Translations under genes and position numbers: made by a program
Notes under the pieces: model-generated
Told to the model about the DNA's origin: nothing
What the model saw: only the letters and a program-made list of their open reading frames with translations
Databases searched by the model: none
Part shown: positions 2,233 to 63,577 of the stretch, piece by piece
Layout of the letters: each line of letters starts with the position of its first letter
How positions within the stretch are numbered: position 1 is the first letter of the stretch
NCBI RefSeq assembly: GCF_000003605.2
Contig: NW_003134352.1
Span: 1 to 64,000, forward strand
DNA: 64,000 bases
Source of the DNA: Saccoglossus kowalevskii
Lineage: Eukaryota > Hemichordata > Enteropneusta > Harrimaniidae
Reading direction: 5' to 3'

Positions 2233-2365
2233 TTAAAGGGCAGTGGTCGTCGCACCGCGTCCTGTTCGATATGGGACCCATAGCGACGTATGCAACGCGT
2301 GTAAAATACATTGTTTATTTACATGAAATTCGAACACGCGCTGCGCGACGACAACCGCCCTTTAA
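2233..2365 (+). mobile_element. MITE family 1, copy a (133 bp, TTAA-flanked)
   Basis: The element starts AGGGCAGTGGTCGTCGC and ends GCGACGACAACCGCCCT, imperfect inverted repeats of about 28 bp, with TTAA on both sides (2233-2236, 2362-2365). TTAA target duplication is the hallmark of piggyBac-type transposition, so this is probably a piggyBac-derived MITE. Two more copies of exactly 133 bp lie at 53166 (inverted) and 60116. The 40-bp centre is identical in all three. Confidence 0.88.
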
Positions 2366-2658
2366 AGTAAAAGTTATCGCCCAACTGACTGGAGGTACTG
2401 CAAGAAACTTGGGAATTACATACGTCCAAAAATAGGTATGTCCTATTAATTAGACATGATAAGACTTGAGAGATTGGAGTATATCATACCAATATACTTA
2501 GGGAGGATGTATATAATTAAGTAATTGTTTTTAATTAAAGCGCTGTTTGTCAGTTGCCGAACATCTAACTAGCAGAGTAGTGATCGGAAATGTTTAATAC
2601 ATCCGGGTATTTGACGGAACATGACACTCACGTATTCACAACGTATCTCGTGACACCG

Positions 2659-6234: not shown

Positions 6235-6418
6235 ACTATACCGTCTTCGCCCACAGTCACTTGCGGCTGAAAATCCATAAATACTATTTGTTTGAAAAAA
6301 AAGTCATCCGCTATACGCATAAATTTATATGCGTATAGCGGATGACTTTTTTAAGAAAAATAGTATTAATTTTCTTTGATTTGCAGCTCTACAAGTGACC
6401 GTGTCTTCATCTTACCAT
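6235..6418. repeat. Foldback element with a perfect 25-bp stem
   Basis: Bases 6297-6321 and 6328-6352 are perfectly complementary (GTCATCCGCTATACGCATA against its reverse complement) around a 6-base AATTTA loop. Outside a short mismatch the arms continue to pair imperfectly: AATACTATTT against AAATAGTATT, then CAGTCACTTG against CAAGTGACCG. This gives a foldback of about 180 bp. No clear target-site duplication was found. It is most likely a foldback MITE. Confidence 0.85.
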
Positions 6419-9764: not shown

Positions 9765-9931
9765 TTAAAGCGGAGGAGTCGTCTCCTGCGCGTGCGTTAG
9801 GTGGTCATAGCGTGTCATTGTTTACAAACAAGCGTCCAACCACGAGCCTTTGCGTTTATATAACGTGCGTTAGTATCGTCGCTTGGGACTCAATTCCCGC
9901 GCGTGCGCAGGTGACGACCCTCCCGCTTTAA
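9765..9931 (+). mobile_element. MITE family 2, copy a (167 bp, TTAA-flanked)
   Basis: Starts AGCGGAGGAGTCGTCTCCTG and ends CAGGTGACGACCCTCCCGCT, inverted repeats of about 28 bp, with TTAA at both ends (9765-9768, 9928-9931). The centre contains CATTGTTTACAAACAAGCG. Related copies lie at 19424 and 56164. Non-coding, probably piggyBac-mobilised. Confidence 0.88.
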
Positions 9932-10030
9932 TAAATATTATGAAATAAATATTTGAATTTTGTTATAAACATTCCCGTCAATTGAAATTCAATTGAAAAT
10001 AATTTGAATGATAACATTGCTCGGCTGAAT

Positions 10031-16006: not shown

Positions 16007-16514
16007 AGCTCCGCTGTCGACAAAGTCGACACAGCGGAGCTGTTCATATCACTGATTATCCGTCGTCGTCCGTCGTCGTCAAATTTACAATCTCAACTTC
16101 TTCTTCGAAATCGCAAGTCAGAATGTTTTCAAATTCGATATGCAAGTACCTTGGAGGGTTCTTTCTCAGATTTGTTCATTTTATGTCAATATCTCAAATT
16201 CTCTATTTTTGGTGATTATTTTTGTAATTTTTGGTAAAAAGTTCTTGTTAAAACCGCAAGTCCGATTGCTTTGATATAACATATATAGGTACTACACGTG
16301 GACCTCTCTCAGATTTGTTCATTTTGTGATATCTTTAATGCTCTAATTTTGATAAATATTTTCGTCTTTTTTGGTAAAAAGTGATATTTCCGAATTCTTA
16401 TTGAAAACAGCAAATCCGATTGCGTTGATACTATACATACTGTTCATTTTCTAATGATATCTTCAGTTCTTTAATTGAAATGTGCATTTCTAATAGCGGA
16501 GCTATCTCAGCTGA
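16007..16514 (-). mobile_element. Hairpin-led tandem element A (Helitron/Helentron-like architecture)
   Basis: It begins with a hairpin, AGCTCCGCTGTCGAC / GTCGACACAGCGGAGCT (16007-16041). A CGTCGTCGTC microsatellite follows (16061-16080), then about 2.7 imperfect tandem units of 143-154 bp (phased on GCAAGTCAGAATG 16113, GCAAGTCCGATTG 16256, GCAAATCCGATTG 16410). A single inverted arm AGCGGAGCT (16495-16503) comes next and, three bases on, the palindrome TCAGCTGA (16507-16514). Read on the minus strand, it starts with TCA, ends with the hairpin, and is followed directly by CTAA. Helitrons end with a hairpin and CTRR, so a non-autonomous Helitron/Helentron-like element is my inference; flanking bases do not show a canonical A-T target. 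Non-coding. Confidence 0.65.
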
Positions 16515-17956
16515 CAGGCTGCTTGTTTTCACATTTGATATAGCTTCCATATCTTGAAAATTATTTGAAATTTATTAACTTTTGCGACACCTTGTATGTG
16601 TCTACATGTCGGTAATGTAAATGAAAGTTAAATATGAAATACATATTTCTATTAATGTGTGGCGGCAACACGCACAGTTATTTCATTTAAAACCAAATAA
16701 AAAATTTGCTATATATATTTGTTTTTACCTAAACATATTAAAAATAATCATTGGTGTTCTTCATCGTTTATGCGTAAAACTAGTTTCGATACGTGAACCA
16801 ATATCCCAGACAGATATATTCCCACTTTGAGAACTAGTTCCAATAATAATGAGGATTTTAAACATATATTATCAGTATATTTAATATGTCAAATACTAAC
16901 CTCTCGCTTTATAAATTTGAAGAGATCTATTTGATCTATACTAATTTATTGTAATACTGCTTGGATGAGTATTTGACGATTCTGTCAAATCAGTTTATTC
17001 TTTATCAACTATTGAAATACCTATACAATTTCTGAATTTTCAGTTGAAATACTATTGTTCAATTGTTTTATATTCCATTTTCACTTATAGATCAATACTA
17101 AGTCACTTCAGTTTTAAAACTACTCTGTTTCAACAGACGGAAACACATGTCTGGTACATATATCACCTAACACCGACAATCACCAGTATCACATTATTTC
17201 TAATAGCTGAAACATGCTGATTATAATAGGTACATCAACTCTCCACGGTCGAATATCGGTAAATGTGAAATTACAATGTAATGATCCAAGCTGAATACTT
17301 TTATTTGGGTTCGCTTTGCTAGTTAGACTAATGGAACAACATGATATGAAACTAATAGCGTCGTTTAAACTCATACGACAATGACAGAAAATCACATTAG
17401 CGTGAATTAATGTAATACTATTATGTTGAGAAAAAGGTTTCAGAGATAATGGTGACTAGAATCAATTTTCCTTTATCAACTTTGGTTACATACAATCCCA
17501 ACCCGTTTTATCTATTATCCAACGCATTTTAGCGAAGATGAAATAATTAATATATGTATTTGTTAGTTTAAAAAAATCTATATTATCAATAATATTTCCA
17601 TTTTTAAACAACATTGCCCCCAATTTAGTTATTATAATTAGACGGTAAACGAAAATATTTAGTAGCGTATACAGCAAATCTCTGGGGAAATTAAGTATAT
17701 CTGTTGGGAGATAATTGTCAAATGTATTTACAGAAAAATCAAACGAACCCTCTTCAGGAATTATGAAAATTATACTACTCATGAATTAACAACATGACTG
17801 TATCAGATAATCTTTTTTCCCTAGATGTATCTCCATATTGTAACCGTAGATTACTAGGTCATACTCATGGTGATTATCATGTACGTCAAAACAGTGGTTA
17901 TATCCCCAGGGGGTATGTTGAAGTCAGTATACTGAAATCGCGGTATGAGTCCAGAG
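16515..17956. other. Non-coding AT-rich stretch
   Basis: Only AT-rich shadow frames (for example a 98-codon minus frame at 17486-17782 with Asn/Ile/Phe-rich composition and no splice support). Nothing recognised. Confidence 0.5.
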
Positions 17957-19423: not shown

Positions 19424-19587
19424 TTAAAGCGGGGGAGTCGTCACCTGCACATGCATCAGATGGCCATAGCGTGTCATTGTTTACAAACAAGCGTCTACCT
19501 ATGAGCCTTTGCGTTTTAGCGTGTGTTGTTATCGTCGTTTGGGACTCAATTCCCGCGCGTGCGCGGGTGACGACCCTCCCGCTTTAA
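19424..19587 (+). mobile_element. MITE family 2, copy b (164 bp, TTAA-flanked)
   Basis: AGCGGGGGAGTCGTCACCTG at the left and GGGTGACGACCCTCCCGCT at the right form the inverted repeats, between TTAA 19424-19427 and TTAA 19584-19587. The middle GTCATTGTTTACAAACAAGC is shared with copies at 9765 and 56164. Confidence 0.88.
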
Positions 19588-52620: not shown

Positions 52621-52735
52621 TGTCACAGTGTAAGCAGGCCTTACACTGTGACATTTTGTATAAAAATTGCAATTGAGAGGGCCACCGACAGATCCCCCTG
52701 TCCAGGGTGAGTTCTGCAGGCCTTACACTGTGACA
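52621..52735. repeat. 14-bp perfect stem plus 20-bp direct repeat
   Basis: TGTCACAGTGTAAG (52621-52634) and CTTACACTGTGACA (52640-52653) are perfect inverted repeats around CAGGC. The right half with its spacer, GCAGGCCTTACACTGTGACA, recurs identically at 52716-52735, 82 bases on. The interval between is GC-richer (CAGATCCCCCTGTCCAGGG). One left arm can therefore pair with either right arm. Confidence 0.9.
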
Positions 52736-53165: not shown

Positions 53166-53298
53166 TTAAAGCGCGGTGGTCGTCGTGCATCGCGTGTTCG
53201 AATTTCATGTAAATAAACAATGTATTTTACACGCGTTGTTTACGTCGCTATGAGTCCCATATCGAACAGGACGCGGCACGACGACTACCGCCCTTTAA
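53166..53298 (-). mobile_element. MITE family 1, copy b (133 bp, TTAA-flanked)
   Basis: Same element as 2233-2365 in inverted orientation, between TTAA 53166-53169 and TTAA 53295-53298. The 40-bp centre (containing TGTAAATAAACAATG) is identical to the other copies once inverted. Outer arms differ mostly at CpG sites. Confidence 0.88.
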
Positions 53299-54262: not shown

Positions 54263-55312
54263 TATAAAACTTTCGGTGTTAATTCCGATGTTAGAGATTC
54301 GAAATAACATGCTAGGGAGTCTAATTTGTTTACATTAATATGACAACACGTCTTGTGTATTGCTAGTATAGTGTATATTTGTGTATGTTTCAATACACCA
54401 ACAACGACATTAACTATACATTAATAATATCTCATTTACATTACTAGCAGTTACAAAACATCGTGTAGTATATGCTTGTCACAACGCCGTTTATGTAGCA
54501 CCCAGTACATGCGCCAATGATGTTCAAATCTGCCTGTATAGTTTATGTTTGTATGTGTCATTGGATCTTAGATGAACGACGAACCATTAAGCTAGGGAGA
54601 TTTGCAAGTCATACACCCTAACAGTGTTTCAATTAACCAATACATGAAATTCGATGCAGTTCTGCTTCTTCGCTTACGAAAAGAGGTTCACTGTTTGTTC
54701 TATCTGAGGCGGAGAACATATTTATCGGGTAATTTACTAGTAACCACTTTTCAGTCAAGTGTTGAGTCAATAAACTTTAACTTTTCAATTAGTTTATACT
54801 GAAATTAAAGGTTAATGGTGGCAGTTTATAATTAAATTAAACCTGGGCAGCGATTGAATCGTTCTGAAGTCTTTAAAAGCAGTAATGAATTATTGTAATG
54901 CTATAAATATGGTTATATTGAGTTAAAGAGAAATAAAGTGTATATAACTAGAACCTTCGAAGACAGACTGATTAAGTTTGTTCATGTTACATAACTCATA
55001 CCGTGATTTTTAATATAGATGGTACGCTTGCATTGGCTGTGAAAATGAAAACCTTTATTCGATAGAGTGGTTTGTCACTAGGTGTCATAAAAACTTGTTT
55101 CAATATAATGTTAAAGTAATATTAAATACAGAAATGACGTAAATAATTGAGCGTTCTTTTCGTCATTGATCAGCTAAAAGGTAAATGTATACAATACACC
55201 CTGAGAATTGCAAAGATGATGCAACATTATATGCATTGTGTTCAGTAATGACTTGAAATGTCTCAGCTGTTTAATTGCCCGATCTAATCTATATATTTAA
55301 GTCGTGTACATG
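54263..55312. other. Non-coding stretch
   Basis: Nothing recognised. Confidence 0.5.
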
Positions 55313-55505
55313 TCATGTGCCAGTCACCCCAGTCACGTGCCTCCTATGTGCTAGTCATCCCAGTCATGTGGACGTCATGTGCCAGCCATGTGCTTGTCAC
55401 CCCAGTCATGTATCCGTTATGTGCTAGCCATTCTAGTCATGTGCCAGTCATGTATCCGTCATGTGCTCGTCATTCCAGTCTTGTGCCCGTCATTCGTCAG
55501 TCATT
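55313..55505. repeat. Short-unit minisatellite (10-20 bp units)
   Basis: Repeats built of GTCATGTGCCAGTCA, CCCAGTCATGTG and ATCCGTCATGTGCTCGTC blocks in variable order over about 190 bases. The CCA/GTC-rich frame across it (MCQSPQSRASYVLVIPVM-like) reflects the repeat. Confidence 0.88.
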
Positions 55506-56163: not shown

Positions 56164-56324
56164 TTAAAGGGGGGAGCCATCACCTGCGCATGCGTCAGAT
56201 GGTCAGCGTGTCATTGTTTACAAACAAGCGTCTACCCATGAGCCTTTGCGTTTTAGCGTGTGTTGTTGTCGTCGCTTGAGACTCAATTCCCGCGCGTGCG
56301 CAGTCGAAGACTCTCCCGCTTCAA
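56164..56324 (+). mobile_element. MITE family 2, copy c (161 bp)
   Basis: Left TTAA (56164-56167) followed by AGGGGGGAGCCATCACCTGC; right end GACTCTCCCGCT followed by TCAA, probably a mutated TTAA. It keeps GTCATTGTTTACAAACAAGC in the middle. More diverged in its arms than copies a and b. Confidence 0.85.
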
Positions 56325-57939
56325 TTGTACAATCCATACGTGACCATACACGACTGGTTTCATCAAACTAGTTATAACTAAGAACATGGTTGCTGACTAC
56401 AAATTATATAAAATATATATTGCGTTAACCACATGTAATATTTATATATATATATATATTATTATACATCTGTCAATCAATCTACCAAATACCTGAACCT
56501 CCGTGAACATACTATTATGGACTTCCGACACCGGAACAAAATACATGTAGATGACGAACAAAAACACGTAACTAGGACATGTAAATGACGCAGGAAGACA
56601 TATGAAGGACGTACCTCTGGCACATATAGGCGTGCGTGAAGACGTAAGTAGCATAACTAGGACAATGAACATTTATACGCGCTTTTTTGTTTATGTAAAT
56701 GTCTAATGATTATTAATTTAATAGTTTTTTTGCGTACTATTTAACTTTTCTGCCTGTTCAATTGTAGTTTGTTCAAATGATTTGAAGTGTACATTGTAGG
56801 TGTATTTAAATATCAACGAGAAATAATTAACTATTTTCAACTTGGTTAATTTTGTATCGTAATACTTTTGTCAAATGGAGTAAATAACTGGGTGAATCAT
56901 TCTATAAAGCAGCATGACCAATGCTACGACAGAAATAACTGTGTGTTAGTTTTCAGTAAACATCAAAAGATATTGAATTGAATTCCCTTCACATGGGAGC
57001 ACTTTCTATCATGTCGATAAACTGAAAGCATTTCTTAACTATTAAAACATGAAATGCCTGTAGTGATTAGGTAATGTGACGTGCGGCTCCATGCTTGTTA
57101 TGTTTAAGTACGTGTACCTTGTTTTCGTATTTCGTTATTACAGGCTACATTGGCATGCACTAGCACCCCTGAATTACGTTTATCGGATCGATAGCAATTT
57201 GGTTTACGAAACCTACTATTTGGAGATATTCATATGAGTCCCTATTATATAGGAATGTATAAATTATTGTGTTTATTGTATCGTATTCACTGTAGCCATT
57301 TGCGAATATTGTCACCAAAACAGCCATTTTGTTGTAATTCTAGCTTGTAAATAGCGCTATAAACAACAAATTAATGCTCCAAATATACCACGACTCGGCA
57401 GGTAAACCTCGACATTCTGGAAAATTGGCGTGGGTATGTACGAGACTGTCGTAAACCACCTTCGTACAAGCCTACACGTGCACGTTAGGAGATGAGGTAA
57501 TGGAACGTTACAATATGCGCACCGGAAAAACGCAAATGGATTATTCAAAACTTGCCATAGAGTGGGGTATGCAGTTATCCGGAAGCAATTACGAAATTGT
57601 CTTCAAGAAAGGATGTATCCAGCTTACTTTTCATCACGAGTTTCATTGTAACCAATGTATTGCACAGCACAGTATTTAAGGGTGACGTCACGAATCCAAT
57701 GTATCTGTTGTCCTTGTCAACTGTCATGTGCGCAGAAAAAATATTCCAAAATCTATTTCCTATCTAGTTACGTTTTTGCAAGGAACGTTCAAATTGCAGT
57801 AGTGCGGAATATTGATTTGTCGTCGATTGATGTGAATGTGTATTTACAAGTCTGTGACAGTTCCTTGGTGACGTATTCAGAAAATCACGCGCATCAAAAT
57901 GATATATTCATACAAAGGTCGGTCTCTTCTTGATCGTAC
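56325..57939. other. Non-coding stretch with an AT microsatellite at 56441-56461
   Basis: No exon accepted. TGACGTCA lies at 57683-57690. Confidence 0.45.
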
Positions 57940-60115: not shown

Positions 60116-60248
60116 TTAAAGGGAAATGGTCGTCGCGCTGCGTCCTGTTCGATATGAGACTGATAGCGACATATACAACGTGTGTAAAATACATTGTTTA
60201 TTTACATGAAATTCGAACACGTGCTGCGCGACGACTACCGCCCTTTAA
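60116..60248 (+). mobile_element. MITE family 1, copy c (133 bp, TTAA-flanked)
   Basis: AGGGAAATGGTCGTCGCGC to GCGCGACGACTACCGCCCT between TTAA 60116-60119 and TTAA 60245-60248. Its centre is identical over 40 bases to copies a and b. It ends 20 bases before the hairpin of tandem element B. Confidence 0.88.
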
Positions 60249-60329
60249 TGTCATAATAACTATAATTAGTCCCCGTTCGGACGTAGTCCGAAAACGAGGA
60301 CTTATATGTTTTGCCCTGTGTGCGTCCAT

Positions 60330-60354
60330 CCGTCCGTCCGTCCGTCCGTCCGTG
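60330..60354. repeat. CCGT tetranucleotide microsatellite
   Basis: About six CCGT units just after the terminal hairpin of element B, in the same relative place as the CGTCGTC run in element A. Confidence 0.9.
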
Positions 60355-61654
60355 ATCACCTGTATCTCGAACATGCATGGACCGATTAAGTTCAAACTTC
60401 ACTCATACATCACACATTATATGGGACATATGCACATGCATTTTTTTCATGATCCGATTAACGATAGCCGAATAGCGGCCATTTTAAGGCCGAAAATGCA
60501 TCAAAATCGCACATTTTCACCATTCCGGACCCGGATCTCAGTTATGCATGGACGGATTTTCTTCAAATTTGGTACATACATTAAACATAATAGGACCTTG
60601 ATGCACGTCATTTCTTTTCCCGGATCAAGTTCGAAATGGTTGACTGGTGGCCATTTTGTTTTAAAAAAATCAGTTCTTGATCCGTACTGTCCGAGACATG
60701 CCTGGATTGATCGAGTTCAAACTTCACACACACAAGGTACATCATGTCACAAATATGTATGTGCATTTGTTTCATGATCCGATTAACGATAGCCGAATAG
60801 CAGCCATTTTAAGGCCGAAAATGCATCAAAATCGCACATTTTCACCATTCCGGACCCGGATCTCAGTTATGCATGGACGGATTTTGTTCAAATTTGGTAC
60901 ATACATTAAACATAATAGGACCTTGATGCACGTCATTTTTTCCGGATCAAGTTCGAAATGGTTGACTGGCGGCCATTTTGTTTTAAAAAATTCAGTTCTT
61001 GATCCGTATCCGAGACATGCCTGGATTGATCGAGTTCAAACTTCACACACACAATAGGATCATCGTACATCATGTCACAAATATGTAGGTGCATTTGTTT
61101 TATGATCTCATTAACGATAACCAAATGGCGGCCGCTTTAAGGCCGAAAATGCATCAAAATCGCACATTTTCACCATTCCGGACCCGGATCTCAGTTATGC
61201 ATGGACGGATTTTCTTCAAATTTGGTACATACATTAAACATAATAGGACCTTGATGCACGTCATTTTTTTTTTCCGGATCAAGTTCGAAATGGTTGACTG
61301 GCGGCCATTTTGTTTTAAAAAAATCAGTTCTTGATCCGTATCCGAGACATGCCTGGATTGATCGAGTTCAAACTTCACACACACAAGGTACATCATGTCA
61401 CAAATATGTATGTGCATTTGTTTCATGATCTAATTAACGATAGCCAAACGGCGGCCGCTTTAAGGCCGAAAATGTATTGAAATCGCACATTTTCACCATT
61501 CCGGAACGAGTCTCAGTTATGCATGGACGGATTTTGTTCAAATTTGGTACATACATTAAACATAATAGGACCTTGATGCACCTCATTTTTTTTTCGGGTC
61601 AAGTTCAAAATGGCCGACTGGTGGCCATTTTGTTTTTAAAAAATCAGTTCTTGA

Positions 61655-61704
61655 NNNNNNNNNNNNNNNNNNNNNNNNNNNNNNNNNNNNNNNNNNNNNN
61701 NNNN
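61655..61704. other. Assembly gap, exactly 50 N, inside the tandem array
   Basis: The sequence before the gap ends at CAGTTCTTGA and that after it restarts at ATCAGGTTTGAAATGG. In intact units these points are about 265 bases apart, so the gap is probably a placeholder and its true size larger. Confidence 0.95.
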
Positions 61705-62078
61705 ATCAGGTTTGAAATGGCCGACTGGCGGCCATTTTGTTTTAAAGAATTCAGTTCTGGATATGTATCTGAGACATGCCTGGATTGATCGAGTTCAAAC
61801 TTCACACACACAAGGTAGATCATGTCACAAATATGTATGTGCATTTGTTTCATGATCTCATTAACGATAACCAAATGGCGGCCATTTTAAGGCCGAAAAT
61901 GCATCAAAATCACATATTTTCACAATTCCGGAACCGGATCTCAGTCATGGATGGATGGATTTTGTTCAGATTTAGTACAATGTGTTGTACATATGCAGGT
62001 GCATTTCGGTCATGATCTGCTTTGAATGTATATTTCACTCAAATATGAACGGAACGGGGACGTGTCATTGACAATGAC

Positions 62079-62867
62079 TTGTTTAATAATTCCTTCTGTC
62101 TTCACAATAAAAACTAAAGAGAATTTTTCAACACTGGTAAAATTATCTCAATGGATTGATTTATAACAAAGATTTACAAGAAAATGTAAGCGTCAACCCT
62201 ACCCAACTGTTTCTTGCTAATATTCTAGATATTTTCATTTATGTGGCTTCCACACTAAGGCGATGTACACAGTCTGGTTGCTGATTCATCGTAGATGGAA
62301 TAGGGATTTAGGCAATACTATAATGTTTCATCATTGATTGGTTCACGTCGGTGGCATTGGAATTCCATGATGTAGAATACTGATAACCTAAAACACTATT
62401 TGAATGATAAGTAATGTTTTTTTACGTTTAATTCCCGATTTAGTGATTATTTATCGAAAACCTAGGTTACGCAACCTGGAATGAATTCCTTTGCTGTATG
62501 ACAATAGACAATGTGCGGGTTTCAGTAATATTTTTGTCCAATTCCGCCCTAAAATCCGCCATTGCATTGTCGAATTATGTTGCATCGATCACAGTAGCTA
62601 TAACTTGGTGTTGGATACAGAAACATGTTTAGAACAGTTTAGAATAAATCTGACAACGTTCGGGTTCTAGTTCGAAAGAAATGTGATAGTGGTGACCGAA
62701 TGCTACAACGCTTACGCGTACTATCGATCCACACTGTACGCATATGAATAAATAAGATTAAAATCTGAAATACGTTAAAACAAATGTAGCTAGAATCAAT
62801 TGCATTTATTTTTAATGCAACCTGTAAGATGTGTTATAAAACATTTATGGACATAATACGGCTTATG
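62079..62867. other. Non-coding stretch
   Basis: Nothing recognised. Confidence 0.5.
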
Positions 62868-63487: not shown

Positions 63488-63577
63488 GTTCGAATTTTGT
63501 GTAAACAACGAAACAACAAATGTATTTCGCACGCCTTGTCTACGTCGCATTCCTATATCGAACACGACGCGGAGTGA
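63488..63577 (-). mobile_element. MITE family 1, decayed partial copy
   Basis: GTTCGAATTTTGTGTAAACA, CACGCCTTGTCTACGTCGC and TATATCGAACACGACGCGG follow the order of the inverted family 1 element. Both ends and the TTAA target sites are lost, and about 20 to 25% of positions differ, so it is older than the three full copies. Confidence 0.65.

Follow-up and report, generated by a model that had tools for sequence, protein, structure and literature searches.

HINEs are non-autonomous Helentrons that, in the excerpts of PMC4067079 (Thomas et al., 2014) cited here, are described as having subTIRs, an inverted repeat (IR) or a palindromic subTIR, and a 3' palindrome, together with a T-rich or TT target that is left unmodified; some copies also have microsatellites or tandem repeats. 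The same excerpts define a Helentron family by identical subTIRs of at least 11 bp, describe Helentron structure as significantly different from Helitron structure, and connect HINEs with autonomous partners, in which the protein mostly lies in the plus orientation. In the oyster, 11 elements are described with a 5' subTIR, IR, microsatellite, central repeats, 3' subTIR, and palindrome, and those of group 3 are reported to be unrelated in all modules inside one genome (excerpts of PMC7492417; Vojvoda Zeljko et al., 2020). The DINE-1 microsatellite is given as (CCGT)n(CTGT)n, and D. willistoni is reported to carry three subtypes with differing subTIRs and central repeats (excerpts of PMC2374699; Yang and Barbash, 2008). 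By the convention found in the cited parts of all three papers, the end with the hairpin and microsatellite is the 5' end, and the 3' end is the one that carries the lone arm and palindrome; PMC2374699 (2008) noted that, for want of ORFs, the 5' and 3' labels are arbitrary.

In the 64-kb stretch of DNA analyzed here (the window), an earlier note had reported two elements, A and B, with one architecture and unrelated sequence. Both contain the HINE parts in the published order (5' subTIR, IR, microsatellite, central repeats, 3' subTIR, and palindrome), and we consider it highly probable that A and B are non-autonomous Helentron derivatives (HINEs) belonging to different families and both lying in the + orientation.

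Parts of the two elements and the chance level of their layout

The features of element B are as follows (slashes mark the inferred limits).

60268..62081, + strand, HINE-like non-autonomous element B, probable limits TT/AG...CTTG/TTT
60269..60278, + strand, B 5' subTIR GTCCCCGTTC, the sole + strand copy in the window
60293..60301, + strand, B inverted repeat AACGAGGAC, complement of the B subTIR with one mismatch, closing the 5' hairpin
60323..60353, + strand, B CGTC/CCGT microsatellite (TRF period 4, 7.8 copies)
60361..62040 (both ends approximate), + strand, B central array of alternating half-units (dimer of about 325 bp; ten half-unit anchors)
62052..62061, + strand, B 3' subTIR GAACGGGGAC, the lone inverse arm
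62065..62077, + strand, B 3' palindrome TCATTGACAATGA, a 7-bp stem in the 20 bases 3' of the lone arm

Element A has the following features.

16007..16525, + strand, HINE-like non-autonomous element A, probable limits TT/AG...CTTG/TTT, inferred
16007..16015, + strand, A 5' subTIR AGCTCCGCT
16033..16041, + strand, A inverted repeat AGCGGAGCT, closing the 5' hairpin
16060..16080, + strand, A short repeat CCGTCGTCGT of two units, absent from the TRF list at score 50
16090..16494 (limits approximate), + strand, A central repeats, about three diverged copies at spacings of 143 and 154 bp
16495..16503, + strand, A 3' subTIR AGCGGAGCT, the lone inverse arm
16507..16514, + strand, A 3' palindrome TCAGCTGA, where the fold prefers CAGC-TGACAG-GCTG

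The limits of B were drawn from the published TT target and the CTTGTTT common to A, rather than from empty sites. On the + strand, the 5' boundary of B reads as a flank ending in TT, then AG, then subTIR GTCCCCGTTC, and its 3' boundary reads as palindrome TCATTGACAATGA followed by CTTG/TTTAATAATT. A run of 50 N at 61655-61704 conceals part of the B array. The common layout claimed for A and B was borne out in its main parts: each has TTAG, a strong hairpin, a microsatellite of the CGT type, tandem units, a lone arm in inverse orientation, and a palindrome, and the two elements are also alike in their T-rich flanks, with TT/AG and CTTG/TTT in both. CTTGTTT at both 3' ends is only suggestive, because the window contains this 7-mer 13 times on the + strand and 9 times on the - strand. 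No copy of A or B was detected in the window beyond each element's own array.

In each element, the subTIR pair consists of exact inverse copies (10 bp in B and 9 bp in A, slightly shorter than the published 11 to 15 bp), with the 5' copy near the terminus and the 3' copy internal, and the IR is complementary to the 5' subTIR. Both elements also have a microsatellite and central tandem repeats, which are common but not obligatory in HINEs. As in HINEs, coding capacity is absent from A and B. Stop-to-stop ORFs of at least 110 amino acids overlapping B numbered three, one of which spans the N run, and a Pfam scan of the two N-free ones gave no family at its cut-off; none overlap A.

One explanation for these arrangements is chance, which would have placed inverted words on either side of tandem arrays. 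The expected number of lone arms was 0.0004 for B (1,850 bp) and 0.0006 for A (600 bp), each below 0.001. The 5' hairpin of B folds as DNA at -10.4 kcal/mol (z, -4.1) and that of A at -16.2 kcal/mol (z, -7.5), and 0 of 200 dinucleotide shuffles folded as well in either case. We also scanned the whole window for a word with a nearby complement and a lone complement 150 to 3,000 bp on, using 9-mers with at least 5 G+C. This filtered scan gave five rows on the + strand (two in A, one in B, and two GGCC palindromic words in the B array) and zero on the - strand of the window, and 30 shuffles of one strand each gave 2 rows in total (mean, 0.067 per shuffled strand). Without the G+C filter, the scan was noisy, with 34 rows on the + strand and 17 on the - strand against a mean of 11.7.

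The earlier note had also pointed to a short palindrome 3' of the lone arm. A palindrome is present in both elements, but its stem length is unusual only in B, where it was matched by 47 of 9,034 window stretches of the same length; that of A is ordinary (3,011 of 9,034). At the two 3' ends, folding was not beyond that of shuffles (35 and 33 of 200 were as good). The ordinary palindrome of A and the noise of the unfiltered scan speak for chance, yet hairpin, microsatellite, array, and lone arm co-occur at two places, and the trio of subTIR, IR, and lone arm is well beyond chance in both A and B. We therefore regard an origin of the whole layout by chance as extremely unlikely.

An outside control used 77 stretches of a viral collection, in which 78 sites had five or more CCGT units; these gave one loose match to a hairpin with a lone arm, situated in a stretch of 70% G+C. 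A 15-base pattern found 13 further viral stretches, which were excluded from this control; the pattern is so short that chance matches are expected. Searches of viral and prokaryote collections, which carry little weight here because the DNA has a eukaryotic look, returned no relatives of the B unit patterns in viral_contigs or genome_contigs, no match to the B hairpin in genome_contigs or to the A hairpin in viral_contigs, and no match between B and phages.

The description of A and B as unrelated in sequence stands, as the score of their interior local alignment was reached by 129 of 200 shuffles. With B reversed, the score was reached by 145 of 200 shuffles, and the stretches after the two microsatellites aligned with scores reached by 79 of 1,000 shuffles in semiglobal mode and 327 of 1,000 in local mode. 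Hidden homology between A and B was thus rejected, with neither interior nor post-microsatellite alignments beyond shuffles. A profile search was uninformative on this relation, since it found no match for A, the B unit, or most shuffles.

Several other repeats were observed in the window. A MITE-like family of about 135 bp has three full copies, at 2233-2368 (+), 53166-53298 (-), and 60116-60251 (+), and a partial one at 63488-63572 (-); the full copies have TTAA at both ends and long terminal inverted repeats, and one copy stops about 19 bases before element B. These TTAA ends presumably reflect a piggyBac-type target. Another MITE-like family, about 165 bp long, is present at 9765-9932, 19424-19587, and 56164-56325, all on the + strand, with copies 84 to 89% alike. 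Its ends are of the TTAAAG...CTTTAA type, one of them altered in copy three, and by eye they look like the ends of the 135-bp family. A perfect 25-bp inverted repeat with a 6-base loop and A/T-rich flanks lies at 6297-6352. A perfect 14-bp hairpin lies at 52621-52653; its lone inverse 9-mer is absent from the scan described above, so by that test it is not a third HINE. Minisatellites were seen at the window start (1-303; complex, with units of about 43 bp and a higher-order period of 133 bp) and at 55299-55504 (nested periods of 20, 22, 31, 42, and 73 bp). No tRNA was found in the window, and no Rfam family reached its gathering score.

Class assignment and proposed mechanism

Read on the minus strand, both elements start with TCA..TGA and finish with a hairpin and CTAA, which the earlier note had likened to Helitron ends; A and B would then be minus-strand derivatives of canonical, non-Helentron Helitrons with a TC start and a hairpin-CTRR end. 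A canonical Helitron has a 5' TC, a 3' hairpin about 10 bases before CTRR, and an A-T target. It resembles A and B in having a hairpin near one end, but in A and B the hairpin lies 0 to 1 base from the inferred end, like that at the HINE 5' end, with TT and not A-T in the flanks. Canonical Helitrons are also not known to have a subTIR pair with an IR and microsatellite. We consider this reading quite unlikely. Canonical TC...hairpin-CTRR ends were the wrong comparison, with Helentrons described as structurally distinct in the cited part of PMC4067079, and the minus-strand polarity has to be reversed, because the published convention puts the hairpin and microsatellite at the 5' end and so places A and B on the + strand.

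A further alternative is a MITE-like, cut-and-paste origin, in which A and B would carry subterminal repeats and have duplicated a TT target. Single copies cannot separate a TT duplication from a TT target without duplication, and DINE-1 is itself named a MITE in an excerpt of PMC2374699. Against a MITE-like origin, the ends are asymmetric, with a strong hairpin on one side and a lone arm on the other, and a microsatellite and an array follow in a fixed order. We judge this alternative very unlikely.

The other comparison drawn before, to Helentron-derived repeats with tandem cores, holds, as the published description of HINE, DINE-1, and Cg_HINE elements matches A and B part by part. Weighing against it are the single copy of each element in the window, subTIRs slightly shorter than published, the ordinary palindrome of A, 3' ends that fold no better than shuffles, and the lack of a Rep/helicase among the 7 ORFs scanned. 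The proposal of a family defined by structure fits the published HINE layout, but this is an established class and not a new one; families of unrelated sequence with a common layout are already published. Shared design without shared sequence is thus a known property of the class, because oyster group 3 and the D. willistoni subtypes display it. What the window adds is two probable HINE families within one 64-kb stretch. Unrelated HINE members are recognizable by layout alone, as already described in oysters and flies.

Going by published work on HINEs and Helentrons, A and B would each owe their copying to an autonomous Helentron at another place in the genome, whose Rep/helicase/endonuclease is predicted to act on the subTIRs and hairpin at their ends. 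Termination of rolling-circle copying may be aided by the 3' palindrome, and insertion would occur between two Ts in T-rich DNA without target duplication. The central satellite-like array would be cargo able to expand and contract. No Rep/helicase was seen among the 7 window ORFs scanned, none of which matched a Pfam family at the curated cut-off; the best match was YgbA_NO (E value of 0.00044; 21.1 bits against a cut-off of 25).

The dimeric array of element B and its possible origin

The B unit of about 325 bp is a dimer of diverged half-units of 170 to 180 and 148 to 154 bp. Successive half-unit anchors are spaced at 171, 154, 171, 148, 180, 152, 170, 257 (a stretch containing the N run), and 171 bp. 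Odd halves can be aligned with even ones for most of their extent, with a score reached by 0 of 500 shuffles for each of two pairs. In a multiple alignment of 9 of the 10 half-units, which left out the stretch with the N run, likeness was 77 to 99% within a class and 50 to 63% between classes, and it looks as if the dimer formed first and was afterwards duplicated as a whole. The last half-unit, which begins at 61929, is 58 to 65% like every other half-unit. By eye, its sequence (61929-62040) has an even-class start and an odd-class continuation, as if a crossover or deletion had closed the array. The earlier contrast between units of about 325 bp in B and about 150 bp in A largely vanishes, because the 325-bp unit is a dimer and the copies in A are 143 and 154 bp apart.

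Similarity of the B array to its later units begins at 60361-60362, about 8 bases past the microsatellite, and the conserved block of DINE-1 sits at the corresponding place after its microsatellite. We compared the 95 bases after the B microsatellite with a presumed stretch of DINE-1, and the score was reached by 0 of 1,000 shuffles in semiglobal mode and 11 of 1,000 in local mode. Among 24,531 background stretches of the window, 39 matched the score to this DINE-1 stretch in semiglobal mode and 689 did so in local mode. For the other B half-units, the scores were reached by 1 to 4 of 300 shuffles for the four even ones, 154 to 233 for the later four odd ones, and 56 for the last. Element A had no likeness to the presumed DINE-1 stretch (435 and 833 of 1,000 shuffles). 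The apparent likeness of B to it is weak.

The diverged halves of the dimer, and its start so near the microsatellite, would be consistent with an array that grew out of the element itself. That the satellite array of B grew from the element's own conserved core is an idea we offer tentatively and think improbable. If it were true, HINEs of distant animal groups would hide a common core behind unrelated arms, and HINE "satellites" would be amplified element core and not captured DNA.

Comparison with known systems

The closest counterparts of A and B are HINEs of other animals, here compared by the descriptions in excerpts of the papers cited. Cg_HINE of the Pacific oyster is like A and B in its 5' subTIR, complementary IR, microsatellite, central repeats, 3' subTIR, palindrome, and T-rich target, and its microsatellites are GTCY, GTCC, or GTCK in several elements versus CGTC/CCGT in A and B (PMC7492417). 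Cg_HINE central repeats have a consensus length of 138 to 181 bp, near the repeat spacing of about 143 to 180 bp in A and B (PMC7492417); unlike in Cg_HINE, the unit of B is a dimer. Cg_HINE group 3 has a common layout without common sequence, as do A and B, a likeness by description and not by letters (PMC7492417). The Pearl, MgE, and DTC84 elements of bivalves, again by description only, have an architecture comparable to that of A and B, with Pearl repeats of about 160 bp (PMC7492417). DINE-1/INE-1 of Drosophila matches A and B in its parts and their order and has (CCGT)n(CTGT)n as its microsatellite; it differs from them in its subTIRs, which are 13 bp long with another sequence, and in its conserved core of roughly 90 bp (PMC2374699 and PMC4067079).
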